This document shows positions 1 to 31,587 of a stretch of DNA of 64,000 bases, piece by piece. The DNA is taken from positions 1,180,501 to 1,244,500 of the forward strand of contig JAGVRJ010000010.1 in the NCBI GenBank assembly GCA_019059635.1. Reading direction: 5' to 3'. Origin of the DNA: Proales similis (lineage: Eukaryota > Rotifera > Eurotatoria > Ploima > Proalidae). The position numbers and the translations under genes were made by a program. The notes beneath the pieces were generated by a model. The model was given only the letters and a program-made list of their open reading frames with translations. It was not told the origin of the DNA and made no database searches. Every line of letters starts with the position of its first letter. Position 1 is the stretch's first letter.

Positions 1-216
1 GAAGCGTGTGGGGCAGTATGGTTAAACGCGCGCCGTCCAAGCATAAGAGCAGAGCTCAAACTGCTGCAAACTAAAAGCGAGCGAAGCTTTAGCAAAAAGC
101 TTAAGGTTGACACCGAAAGCGAGCCAAAAAGCTCTTCGCTCAATATATGGATCTCGACGTTTAAAAATTTATTCTGCTGCCATACGGTCAGAATTCCTGT
201 CAATAAACTGTAATCC

Positions 217-1150
217 AATTTAACGCATTTATTTCAATTTAAACCGGTTCAATTTTAACCGGCCTATGAGTTAATGTAAATGAGCTTGGTGAAAATCACA
301 CGCTTACTCTCCTTTTCTCTTGGCCTCTTGCGACTGCTTAAAGAATGGCTGAATGTTTTATTTACAACAATAGAAACACATGATGCGCTTGCCTTCTTTG
401 CTTGAGATGGGAAGCCAAATATGGCGAACAAGTTGTCCAGAAAGCCGGTGCTTGGTCTTTTTTCTCGTTTATCTTTGGCTTGAAACAATATTAGAACAGC
501 CAAGCAGGTTAAGGGGCTTGCTTGCTTGAACACCCACCTTTTATTGAGATTCGCCGCTCCAAACGCTCCTCAATCATGTCTTCCAGCCTATCGATTCTGG
601 CGTTCGGCTGTCGATTTTCTTCCCTCAGCTGTTGATTTTCCTCAAAAAGTCGAGCTTGATTGCGAGCTACTCGCTCGATATCCCTTCGGAACTGACGGTT
701 CTCTTCCCTTAAAACCCGAATATCCTCGAGCACCTCTCGCATTTGAACAAGAAAACGCCGATCGAAATGGTCGTCAATCATGAAGACTGGGTTCTTAAAG
801 TCCTATTAAGCTTAATCTACTTGAGTGTTTTTATTAAATAAGCTTACAAGTTGTTTGGCCATTTCGTTTGAGTTGAAGCTAGTTTACGACGAAATCTTCG
901 CTGTGTGATATTTTCGTTTTGGTGGTGGTGGATGTATGGCCCTTAAATAGGCTATTCAACAATACAAAATATGCGAGGAGGAAATGCTTAGAGAGCGGGG
1001 CTGTACATGAATCGGCTTAATTAGTTTGAAACAGGCTATGAAAACTTAAAAGATGCTTGGTCGGCATCAGTTCAAGCAGCTCAATAAGCTCAGAACTACA
1101 GTCAACTCAAAGAAAGCGCGAGATGCACGAACTCTTTTGGCTATTTATTC
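217..1150 (+). repeat. Left arm of large inverted repeat
   Basis: The reverse complement of this stretch matches 9679-10997 almost base for base over long runs, for example the AATTTAACGCATTTATTTC end at 217 and the GCTATTTATTC end near 1150. Differences are scattered substitutions, small indels, and one gap of roughly 390 bp where the right arm has extra sequence (about 10294-10680). The outer boundary is sharp: similarity stops at about 217 here and 10997 on the right. I see no convincing target-site duplication outside the arms. The arm holds a minus-strand coiled-coil ORF. It could be a terminal inverted repeat of a large transposon or an inverted segmental duplication. Confidence 0.85.
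538..781 (-). pseudogene. Truncated arm-encoded coiled-coil gene (left copy)
   Basis: The ATG at 781 (reverse strand) opens a charged, heptad-patterned stretch (MIDD-FDR start, repeated R-E-E-N-x-Q blocks, then NARIDRLED and RRISIK). It is clearly homologous to the right-arm gene at 10040. The first exon ends at a conserved donor (AAAG then GTGGGTG) at 537. The downstream membrane exon of the right copy is absent here: after the donor the sequence jumps to the part that lies beyond that exon in the right arm. I call it a truncated copy because of this loss. Reading through instead gives only about ten unrelated residues before a stop. Function unknown. Confidence 0.5.
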
Positions 1151-1311
1151 ACTCTTCTTAAGCATGAGAGCCCCTGAATTTTCGCTTGAGCTTAAAAAGA
1201 AAGTAATATCGAGGTGAAAAGTCAATTCAAAACAAGTTTTATTCAAAACCCAAACTAAACTAAGACTAAAACTAAACTAAATTAAAACTACAATACTTTT
1301 AAACTCTTTGA

Positions 1312-4300
1312 CTAATTTTCCAGAATTTGGATCGATTTCGCCAAATATCCGACTGAAACCGCAGAATCACTATTTAGCTGAATCTCCTGTTGATTCTCAA
1401 TGACATAGAGAAGACAGGCATACAAACTTGGCGCGCTCGAGTCATTGGCATCCAAACGTGCCCTCAATACAACGTTTAACTTGAATTGATTCGTGTCGGG
1501 AAACTCTTGCATTTTCATCTCATAAAACCAGGTAGAGCGTAAGTTGGACAACACGCCCCACTTTTTGTTTGCATGTGCCATATAGGCCTCGACATGATGG
1601 CGTCCGGGTAGGTCGTCTCCGGTCTCTTCATCATAGGCTCTCTGCTTTGATCGCGCTCCGGCTGGGTCCAGAGGCTCAGTTATTTCAATCGCCAGGTGAT
1701 GCTTATCATTCTCGTCTACACAGCTGAAATCAGGTTTCAGCTTGAAGTCTTTTCCTTCTTTGTCGCCAATCACTTTCTTTGAGCCCATAAACTTGAGAAT
1801 TTCGTTCATGTTAGAGACAACGTGTGCCTCAAAAAGGGCTCGAACGTCATGTCCTTCTTTCACTTCGGTATTTAAATCGAATTTTATCAATGAGGTTGAC
1901 AAATTTTCATTTCTCTCTCCAATATCCAGATTTCTGTTCTTCCAATAGTCAATCACTTCACTGAAAAATTTCCCGAAAGGTTGTGTGGAGAATATCTTCC
2001 GAATTCGATGAGAGCCGATTGTGATCACTTGGTCCAAGTCCTTCTCTAGTTGAATAATCGGCCCTTTTTTCTTATTCGACTCGGCCAGAATCATCAGTTC
2101 GACTCGAGGACTCAAATAGATCTTTTGAAAGAGCATGTTGAAGAACTAAAGGCAAACTAGAATCTCAAACAATTTTCGAACGATCAATTTTTTTACACTT
2201 GCCATCACTCTCAGGGCCCATTTCTGCTTGAGGTTGTCCGGAATATTTTGGTAGGTATCTTTATCGCACACGGTGAACATAATTGCGTCATTTCCGCGCC
2301 ATGGCTCGGCAAGTGAGACCTGAGTGAAACTGAAATTGAACTTGTCGAATACTTAGCAGGAAAAAATAACTACCAAAGTACTGTCTTCACTCGATGGCTC
2401 GCAATAATTTCGGCTGGCTTGCTTGTAGGAGAAAACTTGGTCCAAGTCCAAGAAGCGGTACACAAACATCTAGTTATCAATCAATACTTAAAAACGGCAT
2501 TCAGACCAAAAAAGTGAAGAAATGCTCACCGCGAAGAAGATTCTGGAATTAAACTCCCGAAAAGTGAGAGTGAGCTGCGATCTCAGAATTTCTTCTAGTT
2601 GCTCTTTGCAAATTAAGCCATCCTTTCGCATGCCGATCAAGTTTAATCTCGAGACACATCTGATAGGTTGATCGACTCGAGAGTCGCTAGCTTCCGTGAG
2701 CTCCAAGCAGACGAGGTCAGTGTCTCTGTAAATCTGATTCCAAATGTCCTTGCGGTGTTCGTAGAACAGGAGAAAGTGTTTGAAAGACGTGAGCTTTTCA
2801 TCGGTAAAATTTGATAAGTTCGATTGATTCAGCGAAATTAATTCACCAACCGCGATCACTTACGTCGTTTTTTACTGAAATCTGTTTTTTCTTGTGGTTC
2901 TCTGTAATTGCCTGCAATTGGTTGCTTAAATAATCGATCAAATTTTGCTTAATCAGTGCGATCAGATTCTTTTTTTCATGAAATGATCTGGGCTGCAATA
3001 TCGGATTAATGCCTATTCTTTGAAGAAAAGCAGGTCGGATGGGTTGAATATTTTCTAGGGTCGATTAATGCACGCAAATAGTTATCCAAATCGTTCCACT
3101 CAGCTTCCGACAATCCGGGCAAGTTCGCAAGGCTTTGATGTGATAGCTCTTCGAAAAAAACCTTCAAGCCGTCGTAGCTGGGAAGTTTTCTATTTCTTAT
3201 CCTCAATTTCGATGACTGCTCAAGATAGAAGATAAACTTTTTGACATAATTGTTGAACGTGATTCTGTCATTTTCGATTTGTGGCGTTGTTTTTCCAAGT
3301 TCAATCCGCGCCTTTTCCCACCAATGAGTCACCCTCTTGACCAACTGTAGCCCGACATTCAAGTCGGACAATCTCTGGGAGAAAGCTATGTTGCCATGAA
3401 AATTCAGATTTTCTGCTTCTATAATCAAGTCAATGATATCCGCAACAGTTTCCGAATCGTTTTCCAAAAGGGGCTCTGCAAACTTCTTCAGCTCGTCTAT
3501 ATAGGAAGACAAGTATGATTTGTGCGAATCGAACCATCGCTGTCTATCCTTATGCATTTCCTCGTCGCTAGTAATTTCATCATAATGCTTGAGGTAGTTC
3601 TTAAGTTCAATAGTAGTTCGATTGAAAGCAGCCATTTTTTCAAAGGCTTCTTCAAGCTCTTCGTAATGATATTGGATAAGCTTCTCCTCAAAGTCGGAAA
3701 ACGCCTTGAGAGTTCCAGGAAAGCTATTTAAAAGAGCTGGACTTCGTTGAGAATGATGAATCCATTCGGTCAACTGTGATCTTAATTCCTGATCGACAGA
3801 TTGATTTCTGTTTGAAAGAATGTTCGCTCTAAACAACTGGAAATCAGTTGAGAAGCAGGGCGAAATGATTGCACTGATCTCTTGCTTTTTGACGGGTATT
3901 TGCAACTCAGCAATCAGAGAATCTTGCAAGAACTTCATCCAACAGAAATTTAATTTCGTACCGCTGTAAAATGAGCTCCGCATGAGGCCATCGATGCGGC
4001 TCGCGTCAATCCGTAGATTTTCATTTTTGATAATCTATAAGCCAGCAAGGTCAGCAAGCAGAAGCAATCATAACATTCAGAAAAGGACTTACTTGGGCTA
4101 GATAAGCAAAGTTGGGCGTGTTGGCCATTATGTTTTTTATTTGCTTTTCAAGGCCCGCCAATTCAGTCTCCATATTACTCGTCCCACTAAATGATTTCCG
4201 GAAGAGGCGTTTGGTACGATTTAAATATGCTCCGACAAGAGCCAACATCATTCCTGCGCAATCGGTTCTATATGCATTAATTGAGCCTACATGGTCGAAG

Positions 4301-5460
4301 GCATAGTTATCGAATATATTTCTTAAGAACGATAGAAAATCACGAACAAGGTCGTGTCTAATCTCTGGACCATTAGTCCCTGTGTTGAAGTATCTTAACA
4401 GCTCCTTTATGAGTTCGATCAACTCATGAATAAAGTCTTCAAAGTATTGCTGATAAAGTCCACTTTCTATTGTTTCCAGAAGTTCTTCAGTCTTTTCGCT
4501 TAAATTGGAGGCAGTTATAGTTGGAGGAGCCCGACCGGGATTGCCAATCCAAGCCAGCATATTTTCCACATCTCTGATAAGCTGTTCGCGTGTCTCATGC
4601 TTGTTTTTGAAGTCAAATACTCTTGAACGCAATTCTTTGATGTATTTGATTGCCCTCACTAGTTTCGCTTCTTTTTCTTTTTGTTTCTCCAGATGATCCA
4701 AGGTGTTTTGTAGCTCTAACCTGCTTTGAGTTGCTTTGTTTTTGCTCTGGGTTTCAATGTCTTCTCGAACTGTTTTTAAATGTCTTGAAAATGTGTCATA
4801 CATTTCATCCAAATATTTAAACACTTGATTGAACTGCAATGGAGTCAAAGAGTTCGAGCGATTTAACTCCGTCAGCGTTTCAGCTAGATTTTTTACGTCT
4901 ACTTCAAGTGAGTTTCCCAACCCAGAAGCATTTGCTGCCGAAGTGATTGGCTCAAAATTCGGCGTAATCTTGAATTGAACTAAATTGTGTAGATCTCCCA
5001 CCATTCTATAGAAACGCTTGCCTTCCTCAAGGTCATTTCTTTGGCTTCCAAGTTTGGCCAGTTTGATATCAATCTTTCTCAGCTTTTGCAAGAACTCGCA
5101 CTTGAGCTTCACAAACAACAGCGCGCAAATCTGGACACAAAGCTTGTCCCTTGTGTCAACTACAAGACCATCAGCAATTTCACCGGCCAAGTGGCAAACT
5201 CTTAGTTGTGTGATGTCAATTAGAAAGGCGTTTGCCTTTTTTTCGGCCATCAGCAGAGATGGTGGCTCTTACCCGATCGCATGCTCATACGCCGAGTAGT
5301 TTACAGATGAATTAGCCAAGTGATTGGAATCGCAATGCTTCACATTTTGAAGATTTCTAAACTTGGCTGTTTGAGTTATTTCCCAGAGAATACTGTTCAT
5401 TTGAATGTTTTTGTGTACTGTATCGAACACAATTCGATAATTTGCGTTTAAGGCCATCAT
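1312..5460 (-). pseudogene. Large coiled-coil protein gene with PD-(D/E)XK-like C-terminus, one frame break
   Basis: I reconstruct eight coding blocks on the minus strand: 5460-5273, 5200-4093, 4034-2864, 2793-2530, 2469-2374, 2319-2197 and 2145-1312, where the third block contains a one-base frame break between about 3010 and 3066. Introns are 51-72 nt with GT-AG ends and phases that join consistently. Discounting the extra base, the total is 3783 nt, about 1260 residues. The N-terminal two thirds is charged, helical and coiled-coil-like. The last exon has PDF, then IEIT about 15 residues on, then a conserved-looking YMAHANKKWGVLS segment followed by TWF. That order resembles the restriction-endonuclease fold seen in Crinkler-type eukaryotic proteins, although the usual E-x-K lysine is a threonine. 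The broken frame suggests a recent pseudogene, an allele or an assembly error. It lies wholly inside the inverted-repeat block. Function unknown. Confidence 0.6.
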
Positions 5461-6869
5461 CTTGGCTTTTAACTGTGCTCTGGCTAGTCAGAAAATCTAG
5501 GCTTTAGACAAATTTTAAATCAATTGAGCTGTAATTTTTGGTGAATAAGAAGAAAAAATGGCCTATAACTAAGTGCCTATATTGAATACGATTGGCAACG
5601 AGAGCACAAGAACTCTTCAAGGAATTGCATTCTTTCTCAATCGAAGCAGAAACGCTTTTCTTAATTTTTGATCGGTAAGTAAAAATTTAGGCGCTTATTA
5701 AGCGTGGCATAAGCATTGCTGATTGAGCAGCAGGCACTTAATTTTTACGAGCGTCGGTTTTTCGCATTATCTCGAGCTTTATTTTAATATTTTAATTAAA
5801 TTACTTAATTTAAATTTAAATTAAGTGAGCTGTGAATATTCTCAATACCTTATCGAACCCTTTGCTTTCTATTGAAAAATCCAGCAATACTCTTTATTTT
5901 CTTCTATACATTAACACGAGTGTTCATCTCAGTAAGACGTACCACTCATTAAGCCAGAAATTAGAAAGCCAAAACGTGGTCGGCCACCGAACGCTTATAA
6001 AAGTAAGAAGCGACAGAAAGTTTAAGAATTATTACGCTAGATGTGCCTTTCGCGTATTTTATCTCAAATTGTCAGCTTAATGGTTACATGATATAGCCCA
6101 GGTTTTCTTAACGTTAGTTATCACTCAAGATAATAAATATTTAGTGATTAAGGCATAGGCATTGCTGATTAAACAACAGGCCTCTAATTTTACGCTAGCG
6201 TCGGTCTTGATTAGCCGTGAATCGAATGGCAACAAAACTGCTCGGCTTGAAAGCGCGTGACTCAAAAAGCGGTGGAAATTATGATTCTCTTCTATTCGTT
6301 TTTGCAATCAAATCCAAAGATATGACAGAGGAAGTGGGTTTGTTAGAAACTACTCAATTGGGGGAAGGAAGGACAAATAGTGGGAAAATAAATCGAATAA
6401 AGAGTTGCTCCTTTTCCAATCAATTTAAGGGCAAAACAACCAACAGGTGTCTCAAAATCACACTGAGCCTGAAAGGCACAGACTTTTAAAGCTCTTTAAC
6501 GCACACTAGATCTACAAAGCAGAATCGGGTGGCCAAGAAAATTAAGTTGTACTTAAAAAGCCAACTAATCAGATTCCTTTCTAAACTGTAGCGATTAGTA
6601 CATGGAATTCAATTCAAGTTCTCTTCAGGCTATTTGATCATTTGAGCTTTTGACTTTGCTTGCTTGAATGAGAAAATCTAAAAAATCAAACTGAAATGAT
6701 CCGATGATTGTTTTCACCCAACAGCTCGTACCTCTCAGCAGAAGCTGTCACATATTTAAGTCGACTCCATAATTTTTCCAATTATGCATATTCAAATTCA
6801 AGTACAAGAAGGGTGTTCGCGTGAACAAATTTGCCGTGTGAGATCGCCGAGTCAAAAGCGTCCAAAAAG
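5461..6869. other. AT-rich spacer with a diverged direct repeat
   Basis: No supported gene lies between the coiled-coil gene and FAM91, which are divergent here, so both promoters should lie in this spacer. About 70 bp at 5690-5760 recurs imperfectly at 6139-6212 in the same orientation; the shared core is GCATTGCTGATT followed by CAGGC, TAATTTT and GCGTCGGT. Short ORFs at 5832-6080 and 6217-6489 show no recognisable domain or splice context. Confidence 0.5.
5690..6212. repeat. Imperfect direct repeat pair, about 70 bp units 450 bp apart
   Basis: The units at about 5690-5760 and 6139-6212 share GGCATA, GCATTGCTGATT, CAGGC, TAATTTT and GCGTCGGT in the same order and orientation, with scattered substitutions. 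The 380 bp between them shows no obvious further similarity. They could be remnants of a small repeat family or of the large inverted-repeat element. Confidence 0.55.
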
Positions 6870-9465
6870 ATGAATCCTGAAGTTGAGAGCCAGATTCGCC
6901 ACCATGTGGCATGGAGCAAACTGCCTTCCAACATTAAACAGGTAGTTTGCCTTGCTTCAATTCATCATGCGCTTAAATTTATTTTATTTTGTTTAGCTTT
7001 TTGGAAATGTCCCAAAGGAGTACGAAAAAGCGATCATTTCGTATTGTATTCGAAATCAGTGCCGTTTTAGGACCAGTTTTGGTAAATAATATTGAACCAT
7101 CGTCTTACTTGGGCGGTCGGAGTTTTTCAACGTTTTCAAGTAAGGAGCGTGCGAAAGGACGAGAAAAGGTACTACGAGGAGCTGATGGAGTTCAGCAAGA
7201 AACACTTTATGCTCTATCCGTACCATTTGAGCGACATTTATGTGCGAGGGCTTCGCCTCACGCCATTCAACTACTATATTGAGATGCTGTCCGATCTGAT
7301 TGCGGCGGAGAAGAGCTACGACACGCTTCCAAACTTCACGGCGTTTGACTGTGTCCGACTTTTGGGCATTGGTCGCAATCAGTACATTGAGATTATGAAC
7401 AAGTATCGTTCATCGTCCAAGTCCTTGATTGGGTTCGGTCGAAAGCGAGTTCCCACCCGGTCTCTGCTTCCCAGTCAGCCTGCATCAATACTGATCGAGC
7501 CCTGGTGGCTAGTAAATGTCGGATGTATCACTGACGATGACGTCAGGGTCCTGTCAACTGAAGAAAAGGAGTGTATTGACAGCTTGATTGATTTGGCTAA
7601 GCCAGTCGGAGCCGGCAAACTAAATCACGACTGCCTTCACCAGCTGTATCGAAAAGGCCTCATTTATCTTGATGTACCTCTGGCCGCAGAGGACATGGTC
7701 GAAGTGCCACCTCTGGAGAGCTTTGTTATGAACCGGGTAATGGGCGACTATTTTGAGACTTTACTTTACAAATTGTTCGTTTCGATCGATGAGCGCACTA
7801 GCCTCGGCGAGCTGGCCACCTTACTTGAAATCGATATCGAACTGGTGTTGCACGCAGTCTCTCTCTACTGTCGGCTTGCGATCGCCCAGAAGAAAACTCA
7901 GAACTCTACTGCTGCGAATGATCTGCATCCTAGCTGGAATGATTATCGACAAAAGTTCAAGAAACCGGCTGCAAACGAAGGTGAAACGCTGCTGAATTGG
8001 AGAGAAGTAGATGAGCCTGCGTCGACCAAGGAAAACTCGCCAGACAATGATGAACTGATCAATTCGGTAGAGGCTGCCCTCGGCCTCAACACTCCAAACC
8101 AAACAAATCAAAAAAGGATCGGCTTTTTATTCGACTCTACTCTGACGGCTTTTCTCATGATGGGCAACTTGTCGGCCGGTCTCAAGAACCACGCGGTTAC
8201 CATGTGAGTTGGCCCGTTCTCTGTTCTTGTTTTTCTATCTTGAATTTGAATTTTATAAAAACAAAAAAAGGTTCGAAGTAGGCAAGCTGAGCGACCAGTC
8301 GATGGGAAGCTTCCTCTCCGAACTATCCAAGGTCTCGAAAAGTACAAACGAAGGAGATGTTCAGCGATTTTTCGACCACGCCGAGGTGCTCAAATCAACA
8401 ATTCAATTCTTGCGCCAAAATCCGGACCTAAAAATGTTCGCCGGATTTTCAGGAGTAGAAAACTCTGAAGAAAAACAGCCAATCGAAGATGAGCCGCTTG
8501 GCCTAGATTTGCTGAGATGTGAGAGTTTGGCTAGTTTGGACGAAGAGGCTCGTTGTCGAATCTTGGCCAAAAACTACTCAGTCCTATTTTCAATGGCTCC
8601 CTACTCGAGCTCAGGCGAACGTCTTAATTCACCGCCGTTGACAAGCGACTCGCCTTTTCACATTGGACCAGCCATACCCGAAATGAACAGCGTGTGGTTT
8701 CGCCTGTTCCTATTTGAGTTGATAGGCAACGGGCCTCCTACACTCCTCATACCCAAAGGGCACCGCCTGTCACATCTTCCGGGGTCGTTCAAGAAATATG
8801 ACCGGTTTATGCTGATTACTTGGGGTCATGATCCAGTGATAGTTTCTCACTCGAACTTGTTGATTAGCTTAAACGAATCAAGCTCGCATGGGCCGGTTAT
8901 GATTCTTGCCTACTCAGTAGGCAGTGATGACACAGTTCGTGTAGTTCACCTAGCATTCAATGACGATACACATCCGCTCTTCCAGCAGCCTATTGTCCAA
9001 TCTCTGCATCAAAAGCTTTCACTCGAATACTTTGCCGGCTATATGTCGTTGTTTTGCGAAAACAACGCGTTGGTAAATGGCCGTAACGAGAGCGAAGATC
9101 AATGGCGTCTGCTGGATTTGAGATTCGGAGTGCCTCTATTCGACAACAAACTAAATCTAAACGTGCTGAGTCTATTTAAGGAAAAGCAGCTCGGCACTTT
9201 TGCGAATCTGAACGGCATGTTGCAAGCAAGCAGAAAACTCTCTGTTGATTTATTGCGTTTTATACAGAGCAAGCAGTCAATAGATTTACTAGGCGAAAGT
9301 CAGAGCGAAGAATACCTAATAAAGGCGGTAACGAATAAGCATGCTTCTTCGCGTGCAAGCGATTCTCCTGTCATTATTTACCCGACACAGTGCCTATTGT
9401 TCGAAAGCGGCACCACTCTCCGACCTTATGATGATGAGTCTGCGCCGTTCGACCTGGTTCATTAG
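6870..9465 (+). CDS. FAM91A1: FAM91 family protein, complete four-exon gene
   Basis: Exons are 6870-6941, 6997-7081, 7141-8203 and 8271-9465, with introns of 55, 59 and 67 nt; the product is 804 residues, close to the human length. Diagnostic matches run throughout: WSKLPSNIKQ near the N-terminus, KRYYEEL, MLYPYHLSDI, LPNFTAFDC-RLLGIGRNQYI, the FVMNRV-GDYFETLLYK block, IAFLFDSTLTAFLMMGNLS-type residues at the exon 3 end, DLLRCESL, and SWGHDP-like TWGHDP. In animals FAM91A1 works with WDR11 and C17orf75 and binds TBC1D23 in tethering endosome-derived vesicles to the trans-Golgi. The start is the first ATG in frame and aligns with the family N-terminus. The gene looks intact, although it sits between inverted-repeat arms. 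Confidence 0.95.
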
Positions 9466-9511
9466 ATGTTTGAAAACCGTATCCAAATCAATAAATTTTC
9501 TGCGATCCATA

Positions 9512-9640
9512 AAATGACTACCAAATTAAACTGTTTGTATTGACATGCTTAAAGGGGAAAACTTGGCACAAAGTCGGGAAACGGTACACAAACATCAGTA
9601 GATTTATCAATCTTAAAAAATGGTACAAAAAAAATAAAAG
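9512..9640 (-). pseudogene. Relic of one exon of the coiled-coil/PD-(D/E)XK gene
   Basis: The segment GAAAACTTGG...CGGTACACAAACATC...TTATCAATC...CTTAAAAA at about 9558-9625 matches 2430-2500, which is exon 5-6 of the large minus-strand gene with its flanking acceptor. It has the same orientation but many substitutions and a short deletion. The reverse-strand translation keeps MFVYRF and QVF. Weaker similarity extends to the ACTACCAAA that holds that exon's donor. It sits just inside the right arm, so it is probably a leftover of a second, older copy of the element gene. Confidence 0.55.
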
Positions 9641-9678
9641 AAAACCTAGAGTGACAACTAACTTTGTAAATGTAATTT

Positions 9679-10997
9679 GAATAAATAGCCAAAAGAGTTT
9701 GTGCATCTCGCGCTTTCTTTGAGTTGACTGAGCTTATTGAGCTGTTTGAAGTGATGCTGGCCAAGCATCCTTTAAGTTTTCAAAGCCTGTTTCAAACTAA
9801 TTTAGCCAATTCATGTACAGCCCCGCTCTCTAAGCATTTCCTCCTCGCATATTTTGTATTGTTGAATAGCCTATTTAAGGGCCATGCATCCACCACGACC
9901 AAAACGAAAATATCACACAGCGAAGATTTCGTCGTAAACTAGCTTCAACTCAAACGAAATGGCCGAACAACTTGTAAGCTTATTTAATAAAAATACCCAA
10001 GTAATCTAAGCTTGATAAGACTTTAAGAACCCAGTCTTCATGATTGACGACTATTTCGATCGGCAGTTGCTGGTTCAAATTCGAGAGGTGCCCGAGGAAA
10101 TTCGGGTTTTAAGGGAAGAAAATCAACGGCTGAGGGCTGAAGTACAAGAGCTGAGGGAAGAAAATCAACAGCTGAGAGAAGAAAATCAACAGCTGAGGGC
10201 TGAAGTTCAAGAGCTGAACGCCAGAATCGATAGGCTGGAAGACATAATAATGGAAATGCGTTTGGAGCGGCGAATCTCAATAAAAGGTGGGTGTCTATTT
10301 CGTCTTTTACAAGGGCCATTTTATTGCAAGCTGGCTTGTTAGTTGGAAGGTTCACCAAGGTCGCCGAGTTTTTGATTGTTTTACACACAGTTCTCCTTAT
10401 TCTTAAATTGGTTGAGATCGCTTGGTTCGCATCTCATCAGGATGATTATTTAGTTTTGCATATTGCTCAATGCTTCACAGCCTTTCTTTTTTCAGTCCTG
10501 TCTTTTAGCAAGCTCCTCGACTTTTTCGGGTGCCTGGGTCGCTTAGGGCTCAAGTCCCAGAAACTGAGACTCTTCGGCTCAGTAGTCGGTGAGTTGGTCA
10601 ACGTTGTTATTCTAGGCCTCTTTCTTGCCTTTCACACTTGGAAATAAAAACTAGGCGATTAGAAATAATCTTCCATCTCCTATTTCAAGCTAGCAAGCCC
10701 CTTAACCTGCTTGGCTGTTCTAATATTGTTTCAAGCCAAAGATAAACGAGAAAAAAGACCAAGCACCGGCTTTCTGGACAACTTGTTCGCCATATTTGGC
10801 TTCCCATCTCAAGCAAAGAAGGCAAGCGCATCATGTGTTTCTATTGTTGTAAATAAAACATTCAGCCATTCTTTAAGCAGTCGCAAGAGGCCAAGAGAAA
10901 AGGAGAGTAAGCGTGTGATTTTCATCAAGCTCATTTACATTAACTCTCAGGCCGGTCGAAATTGAACCGGTTTAAATTGAAATAAATGCGTTAAATT
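9679..10997 (-). repeat. Right arm of large inverted repeat
   Basis: This is the inverted counterpart of 217-1150. Matching runs include GCATCTCGCGCTTTCTTTGAGTTGACT, the AGCCCCGCTCTCTAAGCATTTCCTCCTCGC tract and GGTTTAAATTGAAATAAATGCGTTAAATT at the outer end. It is longer than the left arm because it keeps about 390 bp holding the membrane-protein exon. The last part (10711-10965) contains a reading frame also open in the left arm, and an AATAAA at about 10853. Confidence 0.85.
10040..10647 (+). CDS. Arm-encoded coiled-coil and membrane protein, unknown
   Basis: Two exons, 10040-10286 and 10331-10647, join in phase through a 44-nt GT-AG intron to give 187 residues. Residues 1-80 are strongly heptad-repeated (LREENQQL and LRAEVQEL units), predicting a long coiled coil. 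Residues 85-187 hold several hydrophobic stretches (LIVLHTVLLILKLV, CFTAFLFSVLSF, LVNVVILGLFLAF) that look like three or four membrane segments, ending in HTWK. I do not recognise the family. The product would be a membrane-anchored coiled-coil protein. The intron is very short, so the alternative is a 100-residue single-exon ORF ending at 10342. The left arm keeps only the first exon. Confidence 0.5.
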
Positions 10998-11277
10998 GTT
11001 CAACTTGAGAGTTGGTGACTTTATAGAATAAGATTTATTAGCAGGGTGAGCTTCCCCGATTTGTTGAGTCTTAATTTTAAAATGCATAATTTGAAAAAAT
11101 TATGGATTCGATCTATGAATATGACAGCAAAAAGGCGAGCAATTCTTTCTCAGTTAGAATGAATAGCTCTAGGTGAGAAAGAGGCCACGAGAGAAGGCCA
11201 GAGATCAAAAAGAATGCCCAACTGACCGAAGTTAAGGACAAAACTCTAATTGTTCGATTAAACAGGCTTTAGATGTA

Positions 11278-12427
11278 ATGTCATGCCATCGGTGTGCTCA
11301 GAAGTTCGGTCTGTTCAAGCGAGAGGTTGTTCTCAAACTTTTATTTCAATTTCTCCAAGTAATTCTGATCGATAGGTCGGCTGTGCCAGTTGTGGTTTCA
11401 GTTTTTGCTCAAAATGTTGCCGGCAAAAGGCAGTTGTTGCTAAAAAAGGCAATCAAAAGCTTATCGTTTGCGATAAATGTTTTGAGGCTACTGCTGGACC
11501 TACGTCCCAACTCAATGTAGACGGCGAACAGACAAGAAAGCTACCAAAACCGATCGAACTTCCCAAAAATCTGCGCCTGTTAAAAGAGATAAACCAGAGA
11601 AAGACGGCGGCCATTCAGGACAATCATCTTGAGCAACGGCTTGCCAATTTGAACATGAACAAACAACCAGGTTTCATTTTTAAAAATCTTGTTTCAAAAC
11701 TGCTTGACAGCCTTCTAGTTCAAAGAGTTTTAAACGATCAGGAGATTGAGGAAAAGCTGGATCTTCTTAAAGGTATGAGCCAGCAAGTTTACCAACAAGA
11801 GTTTGAGACATTTGAATAGAAACTGCATTTAAATAAGGTCGTGACCCAAATGCGCCCAAATTGTCAAATTTACCGGCCGAAAAGCCGCCTGAAACGGTCG
11901 AGGATTTAATGAGGCGGATGGGCGAAGAGGTGAAAGTCGATCAAGAGTACAGAGATTACGAGAGGAAGGAACTGGAGAAACTGGAAGCCCGTTTGAACGC
12001 GTTGGGCACTGGATCCGCTGCGATGCCGAATATGAAAGAGAAGCCAAATTACGCTTCCGATGATGAAGAAGATGAAGAAGAACAAGTCGCCAAGATATTG
12101 AAGCAGGCGGAGAAAGCAGCCGAAAGCTACGATCCGAACGAATTAGATGAAACTGAAGTGAGTGTGGCTTAGGATTTACTTGCAAGCTCGACTTGACCTT
12201 CTTCTTCCTCCTATCAACTGAAGCTTTGGTGCTGCATATGCAACAACGATGCTACATTCCGCTGCTTAGACTGTGACAACGATCCCTACTGTCGTCGATG
12301 TTTTAGGTAGAGATTTTTGAAATTCCGCAAAACTGAGCCTTCTGTGTCTGACTTGGATTTTTAACTTGAACTCAGAGAGACCCATGACAGTTATGAACTG
12401 AAAACCCACCGACGAGAGCTTTTCTAA
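11278..12427 (+). CDS. ZFYVE19: Abscission/NoCut checkpoint regulator (FYVE zinc finger protein 19)
   Basis: Exons 11278-11325, 11376-11670, 11719-11772, 11838-12157, 12224-12306 and 12376-12427 join in phase to 283 residues. The N-terminus is a FYVE-type zinc finger: CHRC, then CASC, CSKC and CDKC pairs, with [11 protein letters not shown] as in ANCHR proteins. The middle holds [14 protein letters not shown] and an acidic stretch. The C-terminus is a B-box-like zinc domain with CCIC, CLDC, YCRRC and [13 protein letters not shown], the hallmark of ZFYVE19/ANCHR. In animals this protein binds VPS4 and CHMP4C and delays abscission at the midbody. A CTTTAG acceptor lies only a few bases before the start. 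The introns, at 48-69 nt, are some of the shortest in the window. AATAAA at 12485 is a likely polyadenylation signal. Confidence 0.9.
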
Positions 12428-23282: not shown

Positions 23283-23620
23283 GTTTATTTTGGAATTGCT
23301 CAACTGAACGTTTACAAGGCCAATAGTGTCGGCTCTGGTTTAATTATAGCAACGCCTCCAATAATAGAACAGGGATTGTTCATTTCGCGACGCGTTTCTC
23401 TACGTCTAGAGTTGGTCACAAAAGTCCAGCCTCTAGGGCGTACTATTCGTATAAAAAAAAGTCATCTTCGAGTGCATGTGTCAGGTGCAGATCTAAGGAG
23501 GGAGGAACTTTAAAAGGGAGGTGCCAGTACAAGAAAAGCTCAGCCCGAAAGTGAGGAAAAGGTTAAAAGATAGCCGGGGCCTTAACGTACGATTAGACTC
23601 GAATCTGTAAGTTGATAAAA
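23283..23620. other. Intergenic region
   Basis: This lies between two divergent start sites (PCNA minus, first GCL copy plus). No gene or clear element is seen beyond a purine-rich stretch near 23495-23570. Confidence 0.35.
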
Positions 23621-25417
23621 ATGGGTCTGCTGAACGAAGGAACGCCGCTCGAGTGGGAAGAGATCTGCCAGCACGCCAAGCGAATAAAAGAGAAGGGCGT
23701 GGAAGAGTTCGTGGCGATCTACAACCGGTACAAGGATATTGACGGCGACAGCTTCAAATGGGGCGACGAGATCGAGTTCTGTTTGGTCAAGTTCGATCAC
23801 GAGAATCGCCGTGTGCGACTCTTGCTCGGTCAAGAAACTTAACAACTCGAATGTGAACTACCAGCCCGAGTTTGCCAGCTGTATGATTGAGGCCATTCCT
23901 GGTGGCCCATTTAATGAAGATTTGAATTTCAGTTTTCGTCAGCTTGAGGCAAACATGAAAGACAGACGCAATAGAGTGCAAGAACTACTCGCAAACGACG
24001 AGTACATTCTTTGCTTGACCAGCTTCCCGTTGACTGGATGCTCGGACTTTACCTGGCCGACAATCTCATCTGACTCCATTTTGGACCACATTGTCTTCGA
24101 TGGCCATCCCCGTTACAAGACAATCAAGAAGAGCATCGAAGTAAGAAGAGGACCAAACACTCAGAACCAGATGTCGGTTGGCGTTTTCCAGGAGCAGAAT
24201 GGAGACGGCAAGACCCAGGACAGTTTAGCCAAGTCCATCAGACTAGACTCAATCTGCTACGGACTGAGCTGTTGCTGTTTACAAGTCACCATGCAGGCGA
24301 AATGTGCCAAAGAGGCGGCACATTTCTACGACCAAATGCTTCCATTCACTCCGATATTCTTGGCTTTGACCGCATCGTCGCCGGTATGGCGTGGCTATCT
24401 GACCGAAATCGATTGCAGGTGGCCAGTCATCTCGCAACTAATGGACGATCGAACAGAAGAAGAACTGATCTACGCCAAGAATAGGTAAGACATGCCTGTC
24501 CAAGTCAAAGGTCAAACCGAAAGTTAATTCGTTTGCAAAGCGCTTGTGTTCGGAAGCTAAGATACGGCTCGCACGAGTGCTACATAAGCAAAGCAGGTGT
24601 AAAGTACAACGATCTCAAGGCTGCACGAGATGAGAGCATCTATCAGAGGCTTCTGCAAGAAGGAGTAGAGGAGCCTCTGGCTGCTTACATTTCCAATCTG
24701 TACACAAGGGAACCACTGATCTATTTCAAAGAGGATTTAGAGTCGCTCTACTCCCATGAGCAGATATTCAACTCAAAGAACTTTGAAAATATTCAATCGA
24801 CCATTTGGCATACAATTCGAATAAAAGTGCCTCCACTCAGCAAAGATGGACAGCGCGATTTGGGCTGGAGAGTGGAGTTCAGGCCGATGGAGCTGCAGTT
24901 CACCGAGTTCGAGAACGCGGCGTTCGTGTCGGCGCTCATCGTGCTGGTCAAGTGCATGCTCAAGTACGAGCTCAACTTCCTGATGCCCATGAGCCTGGTG
25001 GACGCCAACATGAAGCGGGCCGAGCAGATGGACGCGTGCGTCGAGCAAAAGTTCTACTTCCGCCGCAACGTGCTCGAGCGCAAGGAGGCGCACGTGGCCG
25101 AGATGAGCGCGGCCGAGATCATGTGCGGCAGCGACACCTTCCCGGGCGTCCTCAACTTCATGCGCAAGTTCGTCGAGGAGGACTACGAGTTCGACTCGGA
25201 CGTGCGCGAGCAGCTGCTGCAGTACATGCAGCTGCTGGAGGGCCGCGCCAAAGGCAGCCTCATGACGCCGGCCGCGTTCATCCGCCACTTTGTGCGCAGC
25301 CACCCCGAGTACAAGCAGGACTCGAGAGTCACTCCCGAGATCAACTACGACCTCCTCTGGCGTCTGCAGCGCATCCAGGCCGGTCAGGACTCTTGTCCTG
25401 AAATGTTCGGCTTTTAG
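23621..25417 (+). pseudogene. Glutamate-cysteine ligase catalytic subunit, frameshifted copy
   Basis: Two exons, 23621-24484 and 24541-25417, align along their length to the intact copy at 28758. After LLL at about 23826 a deletion relative to the other copy shifts the frame and brings a TAA at 23840. Reading resumes in another frame at PEFASCMIEA and then runs open, through a 56-nt intron absent from the second copy, to the true C-terminus. Landmarks include FPLTGC, SCCCLQ, FTPIFLALTASSPVWRGYL and GWRVEFRPMELQ. Without a compensating intron (none of the right phase was found) the product would be about 73 residues, so I call a pseudogene or recently broken gene. The first 200 bp and last 530 bp are almost identical to the second copy; the middle is strongly diverged. 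Confidence 0.8.
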
Positions 25418-25866
25418 TTTCTCACGTTCAAGAGCCTGTTTCAGTTGACAGTTTTTTGTTTTTAAATCATTAAATGAGCAATTGACTCTTTTGTTATGTA
25501 ACAATTCTTGGCCAAATTTATATTCTATATATTCCTTGGCTCAATTTTGGCTAAATTTAGAGAAGAAAAGGAAGCCGAATTAGAGAGCCGTGGCATGAAA
25601 GGTGTTGAAAATGGCGATGGGCTTGAAATGAGATTCCTATTTACGCCACAGACGGAGTTGGCTACGGTTACGTGGAATTTACCACTCGGTTAGATGCGGC
25701 AGTTCTTGATAAAGGTGATAATCCAACGTTGATTTATTTTGAAAGCAGAGCTCACTTTAAAGAAATTCCATGCGAGACCGCCTTAAGAAAATATTATTAC
25801 TCTCTGCTTCCAGTATTCTGATGGATATTCCGATTTTTAGGGATTTTTCGGTTTGATCTCTTTTCG
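25418..25866. other. Short intergenic region with a weak ORF
   Basis: It includes ATTAAA at about 25469 for the first GCL copy and an open stretch at 25508-25693 (61 codons) with no recognised domain. The receptor promoter should be here. Confidence 0.35.
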
Positions 25867-28215
25867 ATGGGCAAAAATTTTGCGATTCTTTCACTTATTG
25901 CTCTTAGAGCAATCGCGTTTACTCTCTTCTGGCAAATAGCAGAGCTTTGTCCATCTACAGTCAGAAGCATATATGGCCCATTCGGCGAACGATGCATAAT
26001 CTATTTCGATTGCAAGAACGTCCAATTAAAATTGAATAAGTCGCTTGAGATTACAGGAGTCGAATTTAATCAATCCGACTGTCATCCGAATGAAAAAGTT
26101 AACATCTACGGATATCTGACATTAACTCCTCCGGGTATGATCGGAGGCCCTGGCAACTTCCTGGGCGATTGGCTTCAAACTTTCCCGCCCGAACCTTTCA
26201 GATCCAATTTGATCTTCTTCTCTCTTGGCATTAGCTTCTTTGCCGGTATCGAGCCCAATTTTCGCCTCTATTCAATGAGCAACTGCGAGGCCAAGTTGAC
26301 TATAATCGACTCCAAGTTGAGCGTTAGAAACAGCCTGGGCCAAAGATATGATTGCGACCAACTTGCCAACAACATGTCGGTTTTTAGCTCTCGGTATCCG
26401 TTTTCAGTTTTGTTCACATTCGGAGACACTTTCGAAGAAGATACGTGTGAGCAGCTATTTCGCTTCGCAAACATATCGCGTCTGCAAATGGTGGCGATCG
26501 AAGAGTCGCTCATCAAACGAAACATATTCGGAACGAAGGCAAGCGACCACGAGCTAGAAAGCAGAATAGATCGATTCGAAGTAGACGCTTATGGACTTGA
26601 GGTTGATGCGAAATTCTTCTCGCCGCGAGTGTTCGCTCAAACCAAGCTGCTGTCAATAAACGGAGTGATCAGAGATTGGGACAAGCAGTTCCTGGACGGC
26701 ACAAGCCTACTGGCCATTGAGATAATGATAACCGGTTTGCGAAAGTTCTTGCACAATCATCTCGACTGGCTCGACATGGAAAACAAAAGAACGATTCACT
26801 CGCCTCTTAGAATCTACTTTATTTGCCCTGCAACTTATCCGGTTATATTTGTTGAACATCCCGAGTCAGAGGAAATTCAACACCAAAAGTACCACATCAA
26901 AACATCGATGGATCTAGATCAGCAAGAATACGTGTTTGATAACGAAACTGATTTCTGCGTGTTCTACCAGCTTGAGCGCAAGAAACTGAACGTGAAGATA
27001 CTCGGTCGACTTTTTGAATTGACGGCCAATTTTGAATGCGGCTGCACCCTCCTCTGGCTGAGGGACACTTATTTCAAGTCTGAGCGAAATTATGAATTTA
27101 ACCAAACAATTAGGGTCTGCGATCAACGTGAAGAGGAGCTGCGCGATCAGTGTAATTTCGAGCAGATGATTGCCAGATGCGAGCTGCACCCAATTGAGCC
27201 GATTACGGGCGACAGCCCTGACGCTCTGATTAGACTGGCGAAATTTATCGAATACGTGACGAGTATTGTACTGGGGCCATGTTTGGCCTTTCTAGCCGTC
27301 TTGGTCAATGCTGGTGTCATACGAGTATTTCGACGAATGTATCGCTCTGAGGAGTATCGACTGAACAAGCGCACGGATAAAAACAACCGCATGTGGCAAT
27401 ACATCTACATCAACACTTATTTCATTCTTTTTCAAGCGGCCCTGCTCATTGTATGGCCGGCGACCGCTTGCATCAATTACAACGGCATCTACTGTTCCTC
27501 GTTCATAATCTCGAAAAATGGTCAATTATTCTATTTGTACGTTCAGAGCAGCCTGGGAAATGCGCTCAAGTTGATGGCGAATGTGACAAACACTTTGTTC
27601 GTTCTCTATCGATACGCAGTCAATCGTGACTGCTTGCCTATGCTACGCAAAATGCGTCCGCGCCGAGTCACTTTGGTCTGCCTGATTTTTGCTTGTTGTC
27701 TGAGCAGCATAAAAATATTCGTCAACGAGCGTTTCAACATTGAAATTCTGGACAGCTCAAATTTCCGCTACACGTACCAAGGCATATTCGGAAAGCTACA
27801 ACTCGACAGAGTGTTAAACGCCATCAGCGTATTTAACATGTTCGCCGGCAACGCCCTGTTCACTTTGTTCAACTTGACCATCGACATTCGTCTCCTGCTG
27901 TTTCTGCGCGGTCACCAGAAAGAGAGGCGCAAAAAAGACGTCGAATCACGCATCACCAACATGATCATTCTCAACGGGCTCTTTTCGTTTTTCTTTCGCT
28001 TTCCGGAGATTGTGCTCACGGTCTACCAACTGCTCTACACCTACGACTTGATATTTTTTCCCAGCTGCTACATTGAAGCAGAGCCCACCCATTCGCTTTG
28101 TCCCAGTCTCTTTCAAACTGCGCGATTTTTCTATTCGTTCAGCTTTTTTGAGAACGCCATTCTCCTCTACTTATTTAGTCCCCTATTTAGGCGATTTCTA
28201 AACTCAAGCAAATAA
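25867..28215 (+). CDS. Orphan seven-transmembrane receptor with large ectodomain
   Basis: An intronless 782-residue protein. Residues 1-30 are hydrophobic (signal peptide). About 430 residues of Cys-containing, N-glycosylation-rich ectodomain follow. Then come seven hydrophobic segments from about residue 455 to 770, for example SIVLGPCLAFLAVLVNAGVI, YINTYFILFQAALLIVWPAT, LVCLIFACCL and ILNGLFSFFFRFPEI. The last helix FENAILLYLFSPLFRRFL resembles the helix 7 NPxxY plus basic helix 8 region of rhodopsin-class receptors. I cannot name a ligand or subfamily, and see no GAIN/GPS motif. Lineage-specific receptors of this shape are common in invertebrates. An AATAAA overlaps the stop codon (AAATAAATAAA), implying a very short 3' UTR. 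The lack of introns contrasts with neighbouring genes. Confidence 0.75.
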   Translation: MGKNFAILSLIALRAIAFTLFWQIAELCPSTVRSIYGPFGERCIIYFDCKNVQLKLNKSLEITGVEFNQSDCHPNEKVNIYGYLTLTPPGMIGGPGNFLGDWLQTFPPEPFRSNLIFFSLGISFFAGIEPNFRLYSMSNCEAKLTIIDSKLSVRNSLGQRYDCDQLANNMSVFSSRYPFSVLFTFGDTFEEDTCEQLFRFANISRLQMVAIEESLIKRNIFGTKASDHELESRIDRFEVDAYGLEVDAKFFSPRVFAQTKLLSINGVIRDWDKQFLDGTSLLAIEIMITGLRKFLHNHLDWLDMENKRTIHSPLRIYFICPATYPVIFVEHPESEEIQHQKYHIKTSMDLDQQEYVFDNETDFCVFYQLERKKLNVKILGRLFELTANFECGCTLLWLRDTYFKSERNYEFNQTIRVCDQREEELRDQCNFEQMIARCELHPIEPITGDSPDALIRLAKFIEYVTSIVLGPCLAFLAVLVNAGVIRVFRRMYRSEEYRLNKRTDKNNRMWQYIYINTYFILFQAALLIVWPATACINYNGIYCSSFIISKNGQLFYLYVQSSLGNALKLMANVTNTLFVLYRYAVNRDCLPMLRKMRPRRVTLVCLIFACCLSSIKIFVNERFNIEILDSSNFRYTYQGIFGKLQLDRVLNAISVFNMFAGNALFTLFNLTIDIRLLLFLRGHQKERRKKDVESRITNMIILNGLFSFFFRFPEIVLTVYQLLYTYDLIFFPSCYIEAEPTHSLCPSLFQTARFFYSFSFFENAILLYLFSPLFRRFLNSSK

Positions 28216-28757
28216 ATAAATGCCTCGGCTCTTTGGGGAGGCGAGGGCTGGGCGAGAAACGAGCCTTTGGGGACGAGGATTTTCAGCGGCCATTGCAAAG
28301 ACTACTTTCCGGTCTCATGTGTGCGCGGCCTGTTTTGATCACGAAAATAGGATAGGAAAAGAAACGAATGTGCATGCGCGCTACACGCTCGCTACAAATG
28401 GAGAGTGAATATCATCTGTGAATTCAAACAAATAGCTGACCTTAGAATGGGAGGAGCAAGCTGCCAATAAGCTCAAGTGAACTTTCATCGTTGAAGAGTA
28501 CAGTCCAAAGGTACATGAGTTATTGAATCTTTGAACCTTCAGAAGGCGACGAAGCATTAAACGTCCAGTCAGCCTCATCCCCCATTTTGCACTTTTGTTG
28601 CTCTCTGCTTCTGTCCCAGCTTCGTGAGTCCTGGCATTTGAACTTCTCATGAAAAATGTCCGGCAGAGGTCGATTGAGCAAAAGGAACATGGCCTCACCA
28701 CAGAGCGTGTTTGTTTAATCATTGACTGATTTTTGGATTTAGTTGTCACTAGTGCCG
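28216..28757. other. Intergenic region upstream of the second GCL copy
   Basis: No gene is supported. A TTTTTGGATTTAG acceptor-like motif ends at about 28741, shortly before the GCL start. Confidence 0.4.
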
Positions 28758-30575
28758 ATGGGTCTGCTGAACGAAGGAACGCCGCTCGAGTGGGAAGAGA
28801 TCTGCCAGCACGCCAAGCGAATAAAAGAGAAGGGCGTGGAAGAGTTCGTGGCGATCTACAACCGGTACAAGGACATTGACGGCGACAGCTTCAAATGGGG
28901 CGACGAGATCGAGTTCTGTTTGGTCAAGTTCGATCACGAGAATCGCCGTGTGCGACTCTTGCTCAAGGCGCACGACATTCTGCTTCGCCTTCACGGCAGT
29001 CAAGAAGACTTGACCAAAAGCTTGACCTTTCACCCTGAATTTGCCGATTTCATGGTGGAAGCTACGCCCGGTCGACCGTTTGACGACGATCTCAATTCAA
29101 GTATTCGTCGACTCGAACGCAACATGCGAGACAGACGAGACAAGGTGCAGCAGCTGCTCGAGCCGGACGAGCATATACTCGCATTGACCAACTTTCCGCT
29201 AACCGGCTGCAGAGCATTCACTTGGCCCATATTCGAGCCGACGCCCCACAAGGGCTACGTCAGATCGGTCTATTTTCCTGACCAGGCGGTTTACCGCGGC
29301 CATCCTCGCTTCGCCACCATTTCGGAGAACATACGGCTGCGCAAGAGAAAAAGCCTCCAAGTCTTTGTGCCTGTCTTCAAGGACACTCACACGCCGAGGC
29401 CGTTCGTCGATCCAGACTGCACTCGTCGTAGGCCAGATCACATTTGCTTGGATGCAACCGGATTCGGAATGAGCTGCTGCTGTCTTCAGGCAACATTTCA
29501 GGCCAGCTGCCTTGACGAGGCCAAGCATCTCTATGACCAATTGCTTCCGTTCACTCCCATATTTTTAGCGCTTACAGCTTCTTCGCCCGTCTGGCGAGGC
29601 TATCTGACCGAAATTGATTGTAGATGGCATGTGATCGCATCTCTGGTTGATGACAGAACCGAAGAGGAATTGACACCGCAATCAGACGGAAGCCATTTAA
29701 TTCCCAAGTCACGATATGATTCGGTTGACTGCTATCTGAGTGGTCCGGGCCAAAAGTACAACGATCTTCGCCTGGCGCGAAACGAATCGTTATTTCTTAA
29801 GCTCAAGGATAAAGGAGTCGACGAGGCAGTCGCTTCTCATATCTCACATCTGTTTGCTCGCGACCCTCTTGTTTATTACGAGGAGAACTTGCCCTCACTT
29901 GAGCAGGGCTTTACGAGTCTAACTTCAGACAACTTTGAAAATATTCAATCGACCAACTGGCAGAGTCTGCGTTTTAAACCGCCGCCGTTGAGTGTCGGAA
30001 ACGGCGAGAATCACAGCATTGGCTGGAGAGTGGAGTTCAGGCCGATGGAGCTGCAGTTCACCGAGTTCGAGAACGCGGCGTTCGTGTCGGCGCTCATCGT
30101 GCTGGTCAAGTGCATGCTCAAGTACGAGCTCAACTTCCTGATGCCCATGAGCCTGGTGGACGCCAACATGAAGCGGGCCGAGCAGATGGACGCGTGCGTC
30201 GAGCAAAAGTTCTACTTCCGCCGCAACGTGCTCGAGCGCAAGGAGGCGCACGTGGCCGAGATGAGCGCGGCCGAGATCATGTGCGGCAGCGACACCTTCC
30301 CGGGCGTCCTCAACTTCATGCGCAAGTTCGTCGAGGAGGACTACGAGTTCGACTCGGACGTGCGCGAGCAGCTGCTGCAGTACATGCAGCTGCTGGAGGG
30401 CCGCGCCAAAGGCAGCCTCATGACGCCGGCCGCGTTCATCCGCCACTTTGTGCGCAGCCACCCCGAGTACAAGCAGGACTCGAGAGTCACTCCCGAGATC
30501 AACTACGACCTCCTCTGGCGTCTGCAGCGCATCCAGGCCGGCCAGGACTCTTGTCCTGAAATGTACGGGCCCTAA
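28758..30575 (+). CDS. GCLC: Glutamate-cysteine ligase catalytic subunit, intact copy
   Basis: A single 605-residue exon (human GCLC is 637). It catalyses ATP-dependent joining of glutamate and cysteine, the first and limiting step of glutathione synthesis, in the cytosol. Family features are the MGLLNEGTPLEWEE start, WGDEIEF with the metal/ATP-site acidic residues, FPLTGC, SCCCLQATFQ, TPIFLALTASSPVWRGYL, DCRW, IGWRVEFRPMELQFTEFENAA and the FNF-like ELNFLMPMSLVD block. The ATG at 28758 matches the animal family start. The final 540 bp is visibly GC-rich and identical, apart from a handful of bases, to the first copy, while the middle differs at many codons. The intron of the first copy is absent here. 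Confidence 0.95.
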   Translation: MGLLNEGTPLEWEEICQHAKRIKEKGVEEFVAIYNRYKDIDGDSFKWGDEIEFCLVKFDHENRRVRLLLKAHDILLRLHGSQEDLTKSLTFHPEFADFMVEATPGRPFDDDLNSSIRRLERNMRDRRDKVQQLLEPDEHILALTNFPLTGCRAFTWPIFEPTPHKGYVRSVYFPDQAVYRGHPRFATISENIRLRKRKSLQVFVPVFKDTHTPRPFVDPDCTRRRPDHICLDATGFGMSCCCLQATFQASCLDEAKHLYDQLLPFTPIFLALTASSPVWRGYLTEIDCRWHVIASLVDDRTEEELTPQSDGSHLIPKSRYDSVDCYLSGPGQKYNDLRLARNESLFLKLKDKGVDEAVASHISHLFARDPLVYYEENLPSLEQGFTSLTSDNFENIQSTNWQSLRFKPPPLSVGNGENHSIGWRVEFRPMELQFTEFENAAFVSALIVLVKCMLKYELNFLMPMSLVDANMKRAEQMDACVEQKFYFRRNVLERKEAHVAEMSAAEIMCGSDTFPGVLNFMRKFVEEDYEFDSDVREQLLQYMQLLEGRAKGSLMTPAAFIRHFVRSHPEYKQDSRVTPEINYDLLWRLQRIQAGQDSCPEMYGP

Positions 30576-31587
30576 ATTACTCAATTCAATATATTTGCTA
30601 TTTTTTTTCCTACGAATTATGCGGCAATTTTCTTCGATACAATGGGTGATTAACTAATTCCTCTTCGTCTTCTGCCAAGAACTTGTAAATTTATACAGGA
30701 TCTGATTACAAGCCAATCACAATTTTTTATGCAAATAAATAATAAATCTTAAAAGCTTCTCGTCTCGCCAACAACAACAACTGATCGATAAGTAACAATC
30801 ACGCAACGGGTCCATCAGCCACTCGCCATCCCATCAGCCGCATCATCTACTCATTTTTATTTTCTTTCTTTCTCTTTCATGCAGATGGGCTTAAGACCGC
30901 CGCTGCTGCCACCGTTGTTGTATGGCGGCTTTTTTTTTTCCTAAAAGGTATTAGTAGTCGTTGCAGTAGTCGACCGCCAATTGCTCCCGTCCTGGCGCAA
31001 TTCATAATCAGAAATTATGAGGTAGATTTAATTCGATAAGTGCTTGAAATCGCATTATAAAAATGGAAAATTGCAATAACACGAACGCTTGCTTGTTCAG
31101 GTTGTTGGAAAAGAAAAAGTTGAATATAAAAAATGATTATTACGGAATATTATGATGATGGGAGAAAGCGCGCCCGCGCCAGAGAGAGAGAGCGAAAGAA
31201 AAAAAATGCGATTGAAAAGTAGAGAAAGAGAGAGAGAGAGAATGAGAGGGCAAAAGAGAGAGAAGGCTTTGGAAGACGAATTAGGCTGAGGGCAACAGGC
31301 CGGCGACTATGTTTGCCTTTTTTTCTTCAACGATTGATTAGGGACTAATTAAATTAGGCAGCAGCAGCAGCATTAATGCTCAATTGCTGGTTTATTTATG
31401 GCCATCCGGTATTTTGGGCCATGCGAGCTCGAGATGCAAGTTAATTTGCATAACTCGAGCTCCCGGCTTGGTTTTCCTGCCGCTGCATTAGACATTTTTG
31501 AATAATCTGACGCAGTTAAGTTGGCGATCGCATACCAGCCCGTCTCAATCGCACAACTGTTTTAATAATAATTCTGTTTCGTCTAGA
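30576..31587. other. Intergenic region with GA-rich repeats
   Basis: It holds the GCLC 3' end (AATAAATAATAAA near 30735), a GA-rich purine tract at about 31183-31266 and a CAG run near 31362-31372. A TCTGTTTCGTCTAG acceptor-like motif ends one base before the next ATG. No gene is supported. Confidence 0.45.

Follow-up and report, generated by a model that had tools for sequence, protein, structure and literature searches.

Two long inverted repeats, here called arms, enclose two genes in the rotifer Proales similis, FAM91 and a long gene referred to as gene 1. Are the arms the ends of a mobile element that carries FAM91, or did they arise by duplication around genes that happened to lie there? 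The original prediction left the choice between a giant transposon with a captured FAM91, two insertions of one mobile family, and an inverted duplication. In the window, i.e. the whole stretch of 64,000 nucleotides that was analysed, the last of these fits. The arms are probably an inverted paralogue pair of one small gene, partly homogenised by gene conversion, with one copy lacking an exon. The arms and their neighbours are laid out as follows.

1 to 213, plus strand: end of a Ras-family gene that starts left of the window; its stop codon is at 211-213 and arm 1 begins at 216
216 to 1151, minus strand: arm 1, gene copy 1, coiled-coil-like protein, without a hydrophobic exon (inverted match to arm 2)
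1312 to 5460, minus strand: gene 1, a long multi-exon gene with its extent judged by eye; C-terminal exon 1312-2136 (chain of open reading frames with paralogues)
6870 to 9465, plus strand: FAM91 gene, introns included; ATG at 6870, one intron at 8204-8270 (Pfam)
9546 to 9619, minus strand: degenerate match (79%) to the gene 1 exon region 2420-2494, in the spacer after FAM91 (self-comparison)
9678 to 10998, plus strand: arm 2, gene copy 2, coiled-coil-like exon and hydrophobic exon (inverted match to arm 1)
11278 to 12172, plus strand: FYVE-like finger gene, the right neighbour, extent approximate, introns included (FYVE match E 2e-4, below the cut-off)

Comparison of the window with itself returned arm 1 (216-1151) and arm 2 (9678-10998) as an inverted match with sharp edges. 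The inverted arms and their sharp outer ends had been predicted, and the ends found here agree with that prediction to within one base. The match falls into two blocks. Positions 530-1151 match 10294-9678 with 87.3% identity (E 0.0), and positions 216-530 match 10998-10684 with 98.1% identity (E 1.5e-156). A global alignment of the arms has 842 identical columns among the 928 that are aligned. About 390 nt of arm 2 (10294-10683) are missing from arm 1 in both the self-comparison and the alignment, a segment that the earlier description of the arms did not contain. Across the window and a further 20 kb leftward, the arms are the only inverted pair of at least 80 bp at E<=1e-8. Two 100-kb control stretches of the same genome (contigs C1 and C5) contained no inverted repeat of at least 80 bp at E<=1e-8.

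The edges of the arms were then examined for target-site duplications. The earlier report that none was visible holds, as revealed by exact-repeat and shared-word checks. At the outer edges of the whole block there was no exact repeat of 1-20 nt, and none of 4-9 nt when 3 nt of slack was allowed. The edges of each single arm likewise have no target-site duplication, with agreement over just 1 nt for arm 1 and 2 nt for arm 2. Among the four flanks of 21-22 nt, the shared words of at least 6 nt are two 6-mers, each of which joins an outer flank to an inner one; the two outer flanks have no word of at least 6 nt in common. No conserved gene was seen to be broken at the arm edges.

To determine the copy number of the arms, the assembly of this genome (32,716,893 bases in 15 contigs) was searched with arm 2. 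Only the two arms matched, in a DNA search that skips very common words and covers highly repeated parts with less certainty. The original prediction had held that arms proving unique would count against it, and at the DNA level there is no further copy in the assembly. The arm protein was also used as a query in genome and public searches, in the form of exons 1 and 2 of arm 2 plus the putative exon 3, without the hydrophobic exon. Eight matches were obtained in the genome. Four lie in the arms, one lies at a locus on contig C11 (E 0.0011), and the remaining three (E 0.55-0.72) are regarded as coiled-coil noise. With the same query, the public database search returned no relative besides one low-complexity hit, P0001 (E 3.4e-4, 36% of the query). 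P0001, which in our estimation resembles the coiled-coil start of a bacterial IS66-type transposase, was treated as a low-complexity match and rejected as a real relative of the arm protein.

Each arm consists of a predicted small multi-exon gene and approximately 285 bp of upstream sequence, and the predicted product is coiled-coil-like. This label denotes matches to coiled-coil Pfam families rather than the output of a dedicated predictor. The gene models are given below.

848 to 862, minus strand: copy 1, predicted exon 1 (MAKQL), donor GTAAGC
538 to 793, minus strand: copy 1, predicted exon 2, coiled-coil-like (coiled-coil Pfam matches, all below cut-offs)
264 to 478, minus strand: copy 1, putative exon 3, a soluble C-terminus after a 59-nt intron (open frame)
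9959 to 9973, plus strand: copy 2, predicted exon 1 (MAEQL)
10028 to 10286, plus strand: copy 2, predicted exon 2, coiled-coil-like, with 21-nt repeats at 10112-10216
10331 to 10647, plus strand: copy 2, hydrophobic exon with three hydrophobic segments (open frame; counterpart at the C11 locus)
10684 to 10998, plus strand: 3' segment, 98% identical between the arms and including the arm 1 intron tail; putative alternative exon 3 or 3' UTR

Exons 1 and 2 of copy 2 are separated by a predicted intron of 54 nt. Exon 2 runs in phase across a 44-nt GT-AG intron into the hydrophobic exon, which ends with a stop codon and AATAAA. Exons 1 and 2 are also open in copy 1 (862-848 and 793-538) with matching splice phases, and the length of exon 2 differs by 3 nt between the copies, which keeps the frame. 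The hydrophobic exon is missing from copy 1. Instead, the 59-nt intron would link exon 2 to the 3'-segment frame at 478-264, giving a predicted soluble protein. If copy 1 were left unspliced at this intron, the frame would stop shortly past exon 2.

The C11 locus is divergent and shares this layout. Its coiled-coil exon ends in SIK, in phase 1 as in the arms, and is followed by a 60-nt GT-AG intron and an in-phase hydrophobic exon. The hydrophobic exons of arm 2 and C11, one distant pair of sequences, aligned with a score of 59. This score was reached by 0/2000 full shuffles and 0/2000 shuffles of ten-residue blocks, and the reversed sequence scored 31. When the C11 protein was used to search the genome, the arm 2 hydrophobic exon was not among the matches listed. 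Under one hydropathy threshold, the C11 protein has two hydrophobic segments and the arm 2 exon three. Because a coiled-coil exon followed by a hydrophobic exon is common to C11 and arm 2, the ancestral gene probably had the hydrophobic exon, and a deletion of 390 nt probably removed it from arm 1.

It was also considered whether the arm 2 hydrophobic exon derives from PEX11. PEX11 matches are present in the genome on contigs C13 and C5. The alignment score of the C13 piece with the exon was reached by a fraction of 0.386 (full) and 0.312 (block) of 2000 shuffles, and that of the C5 piece by 0.481 (full) and 0.5365 (block) of 2000. The PEX11 origin was rejected because these scores are no better than those of shuffles.

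These gene models suggest the following course of events. One small gene, its upstream region and 3' end included, would have been duplicated in inverted orientation, leaving an unrelated divergent pair, gene 1 and FAM91, between the two copies. Copy 2 appears to keep the ancestral layout of a short exon 1, a coiled-coil exon and a hydrophobic tail exon, and if expressed would yield a predicted membrane-anchored coiled-coil protein. In copy 1 the 390-nt deletion would have removed the hydrophobic exon and left the 59-nt intron, so that its predicted product is a soluble coiled-coil protein. Ectopic gene conversion between the inverted copies may then act on the ends of the arms while the heptad array of exon 2 turns over independently.

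Identity between the arms was determined segment by segment. It is 270/281 (96.1%) in the upstream region, 61/69 (88.4%) in exon 1 plus intron 1, 195/256 (76.2%) in the coiled-coil exon 2, and 98.1% in exon 3 plus the 3' end, where the intron tail contributes 45/46 and the remainder 258/263. The 21-nt repeats of exon 2 lie in a stretch of about 100 nt that aligns poorly, with 15/50 and then 36/50 positions identical. The segments are still unequal in identity when exon 2 is left out (chi-square p 0.0007), and the upstream and 3' segments do not differ (Fisher p 0.22). The first 32 codons of exon 2 have six amino-acid and three silent codon differences (dN 0.09, dS 0.20), counts that neither prove nor exclude selection. 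This mosaic suggests that the arm ends were homogenised by gene conversion and that the exon 2 heptads turned over independently. The 98% tract at the 3' end could alternatively reflect constraint instead of conversion.

A second paralogue pair in the window bears on this reading. Two genes for glutamate-cysteine ligase (GCLC) lie in direct orientation at 23551-25450 and 28681-30610 (GCS Pfam match). They are about 60% identical outside two tracts, one of 207 bp (99.5%) and one of 548 bp (99.6%). To judge by their sequences, the GCLC genes bear a much clearer conversion-like footprint than the arms. Since this stronger mosaic occurs in the same window, the conversion reading of the arms is more plausible, and the arms and the GCLC pair together suggest that ectopic gene conversion is active in this window.

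Between the GCLC genes, at 25822-28215, lies an open frame of 797 residues with several hydrophobic stretches that appears receptor-like by eye; it has no Pfam match at E<=0.001.

How did the small gene come to be copied in inverted orientation? Either of two origins is compatible with the paralogue pair. A small inversion with staggered breaks would leave a duplicate in inverted orientation at both ends; alternatively, template switching during repair could have made an inverted duplication. If breaks were staggered, the block between the arms was itself inverted, the arms are the duplicated breakpoint segment, and FAM91 and gene 1 now stand opposite to their ancestral orientation. We consider this origin possible, though somewhat short of probable. 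Inverted duplicates flanking an unduplicated block are the footprint argued for such inversions in passages of a study of Drosophila subobscura (PMC5080602). The left edge agrees with it as well, for the Ras-family gene still has its stop codon, 2 nt short of arm 1. However, the same picture would result if the segment had been duplicated in inverted orientation and the block had not been inverted.

The genes on either side of the block are as follows. The Ras-family gene, presumably Dexras/RASD-like, encodes a protein (L024 9380-10000, continuing to window position 213) that ends in ...CCHTVRIPVNKL, without a CAAX box, right at the arm edge. A C-terminal CAAX box is expected in such a Ras-family protein. 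On the other side of the block, we take the FYVE-like finger gene to be ZFYVE19/ANCHR-like. Inside the block, gene 1 is oriented leftward to arm 1 and FAM91 rightward to arm 2.

An inverted match of 55 bp (84%) was also seen between 6751-6802 and 11070-11123, upstream of FAM91 and the FYVE gene respectively, and is possibly a shared promoter element. Its core word occurs three times in the window at <=2 mismatches, a number that 5/100 shuffles equalled. Used as a genome query, the second copy matched nothing but itself and so missed the first copy, revealing that the search is insensitive here.

We also wondered whether the loss of the exon had a regulatory consequence, such that one duplicate became soluble and the soluble and anchored proteins now compete as a regulatory pair, with converted ends and a coiled-coil surface that diverges fast. 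We regard this reading as improbable.

FAM91 itself was found between the arms as predicted, with matches to FAM91_N (9e-117) and FAM91_C (9.3e-95). The long unrecognised gene beside it was found as well, on the minus strand from approximately 5460 to 1312, as a chain of open reading frames with paralogues; the 1260 codons ascribed to it were not confirmed. Its exons were joined by eye, and a clear donor is lacking at the junction near 3006-3064. The gene 1 family comprises four loci in the genome, one in the window and one each on C1, C5 and C8. PD-(D/E)XK nucleases carry the motif PD ... (D/E)-x-K. The C-terminal exon of gene 1 has PDF...(A/V)IEIK, which agrees with this motif, in 3/4 loci (L015, L016, L017), and the window copy departs from it with EIT. 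The resemblance to PD-(D/E)XK nucleases, with the window copy degenerate, may serve as a lead.

No public protein relative of the C-terminal exon was found at E<=0.001 with the single sequence, or at E<=0.01 with a three-member alignment. The alignment behind the relative search and the structure model excluded L017, a single open reading frame with poor alignment outside the motif. Pfam returned nothing for the window copy of this exon; for the other gene 1 exons and the paralogues all Pfam matches were below curated cut-offs. NCBIfam returned nothing at E<=0.1. The structure model of the C-terminal exon, with a mean pLDDT of 33.6, was too poor for a fold search, and its order of helices and strands is compatible with the PD-(D/E)XK superfamily. 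The degenerate copy of gene 1 sequence at 9546-9619 is oriented as gene 1 and lies between FAM91 and arm 2. When the genome was searched with the spacer 9500-9677, the spacer itself was the sole match.

These results bear on the idea that the arms are the long terminal inverted repeats of a large transposon, with a captured FAM91 and a novel transposition gene inside. The layout of long inverted arms around two genes suggests it at first sight, and the nuclease-like PD...EIK motif of the small, dispersed gene 1 family leaves room for a cryptic enzyme. The DNA search showed no further copy of the arms in the assembly, which means that the three other gene 1 loci are without them. Target-site duplications are absent, the arms resemble a spliced gene with a distant relative on C11, and FAM91_N has a single match in the genome. 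Pfam listed no transposase family for the nine open reading frames scanned, taking for the coiled-coil frame of arm 2 the best 25 of 89 families. We therefore rejected the transposon, which is now very unlikely, on the grounds of copy number, the gene-like nature of the arms and the missing target-site duplication. The option of two insertions from a single mobile family fares no better, as the arms are a single pair in the assembly. The arms do not look like the ends of a mobile family with FAM91 as cargo. FAM91 is merely located between the two arm copies, and the giant transposon carrying it is removed as a false lead.

An assembly artefact, in which a fold-back chimera or misjoin produced the inverted copy, is scarcely credible. 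Inverted repeats do pose a known risk in assembly, but the arms differ by a 390-nt indel and at 86/928 aligned columns, exon frames are open in both copies, and a chimera would be expected to yield near-identical arms.

The inverted paralogue pair is thus fairly ordinary in kind, a gene duplication around unrelated genes. Its interest is that of a compact case, from a small genome, in which inverted gene duplication is combined with exon loss and mosaic homogenisation. Like palindromic paralogue pairs, it has homologous genes, here predicted gene models, opposed on one chromosome, and mosaic identity between the copies. In Drosophila, mirror-oriented pairs such as Hsp70 and Amylase undergo ectopic gene conversion, according to passages of PMC3924832. 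As described there, Hsp70Aa/Ab and Amy-p/Amy-d resemble the arms in being two linked, mirror-oriented gene copies of high identity (PMC3924832). Unlike the Drosophila pairs, the arms enclose two unrelated genes, an exon has apparently been lost from one copy, and the coiled-coil exon is strongly diverged. Conversion is here read from one assembly rather than from polymorphism. The breakpoints of Drosophila subobscura offer the second likeness. Staggered-break inversions are argued, in the same passages cited above, to leave inverted duplications at both breakpoints (PMC5080602), and here too a short segment is duplicated in inverted orientation at both ends of an unduplicated block. In contrast to those inversions, the block between the arms is merely about 8.5 kb long.
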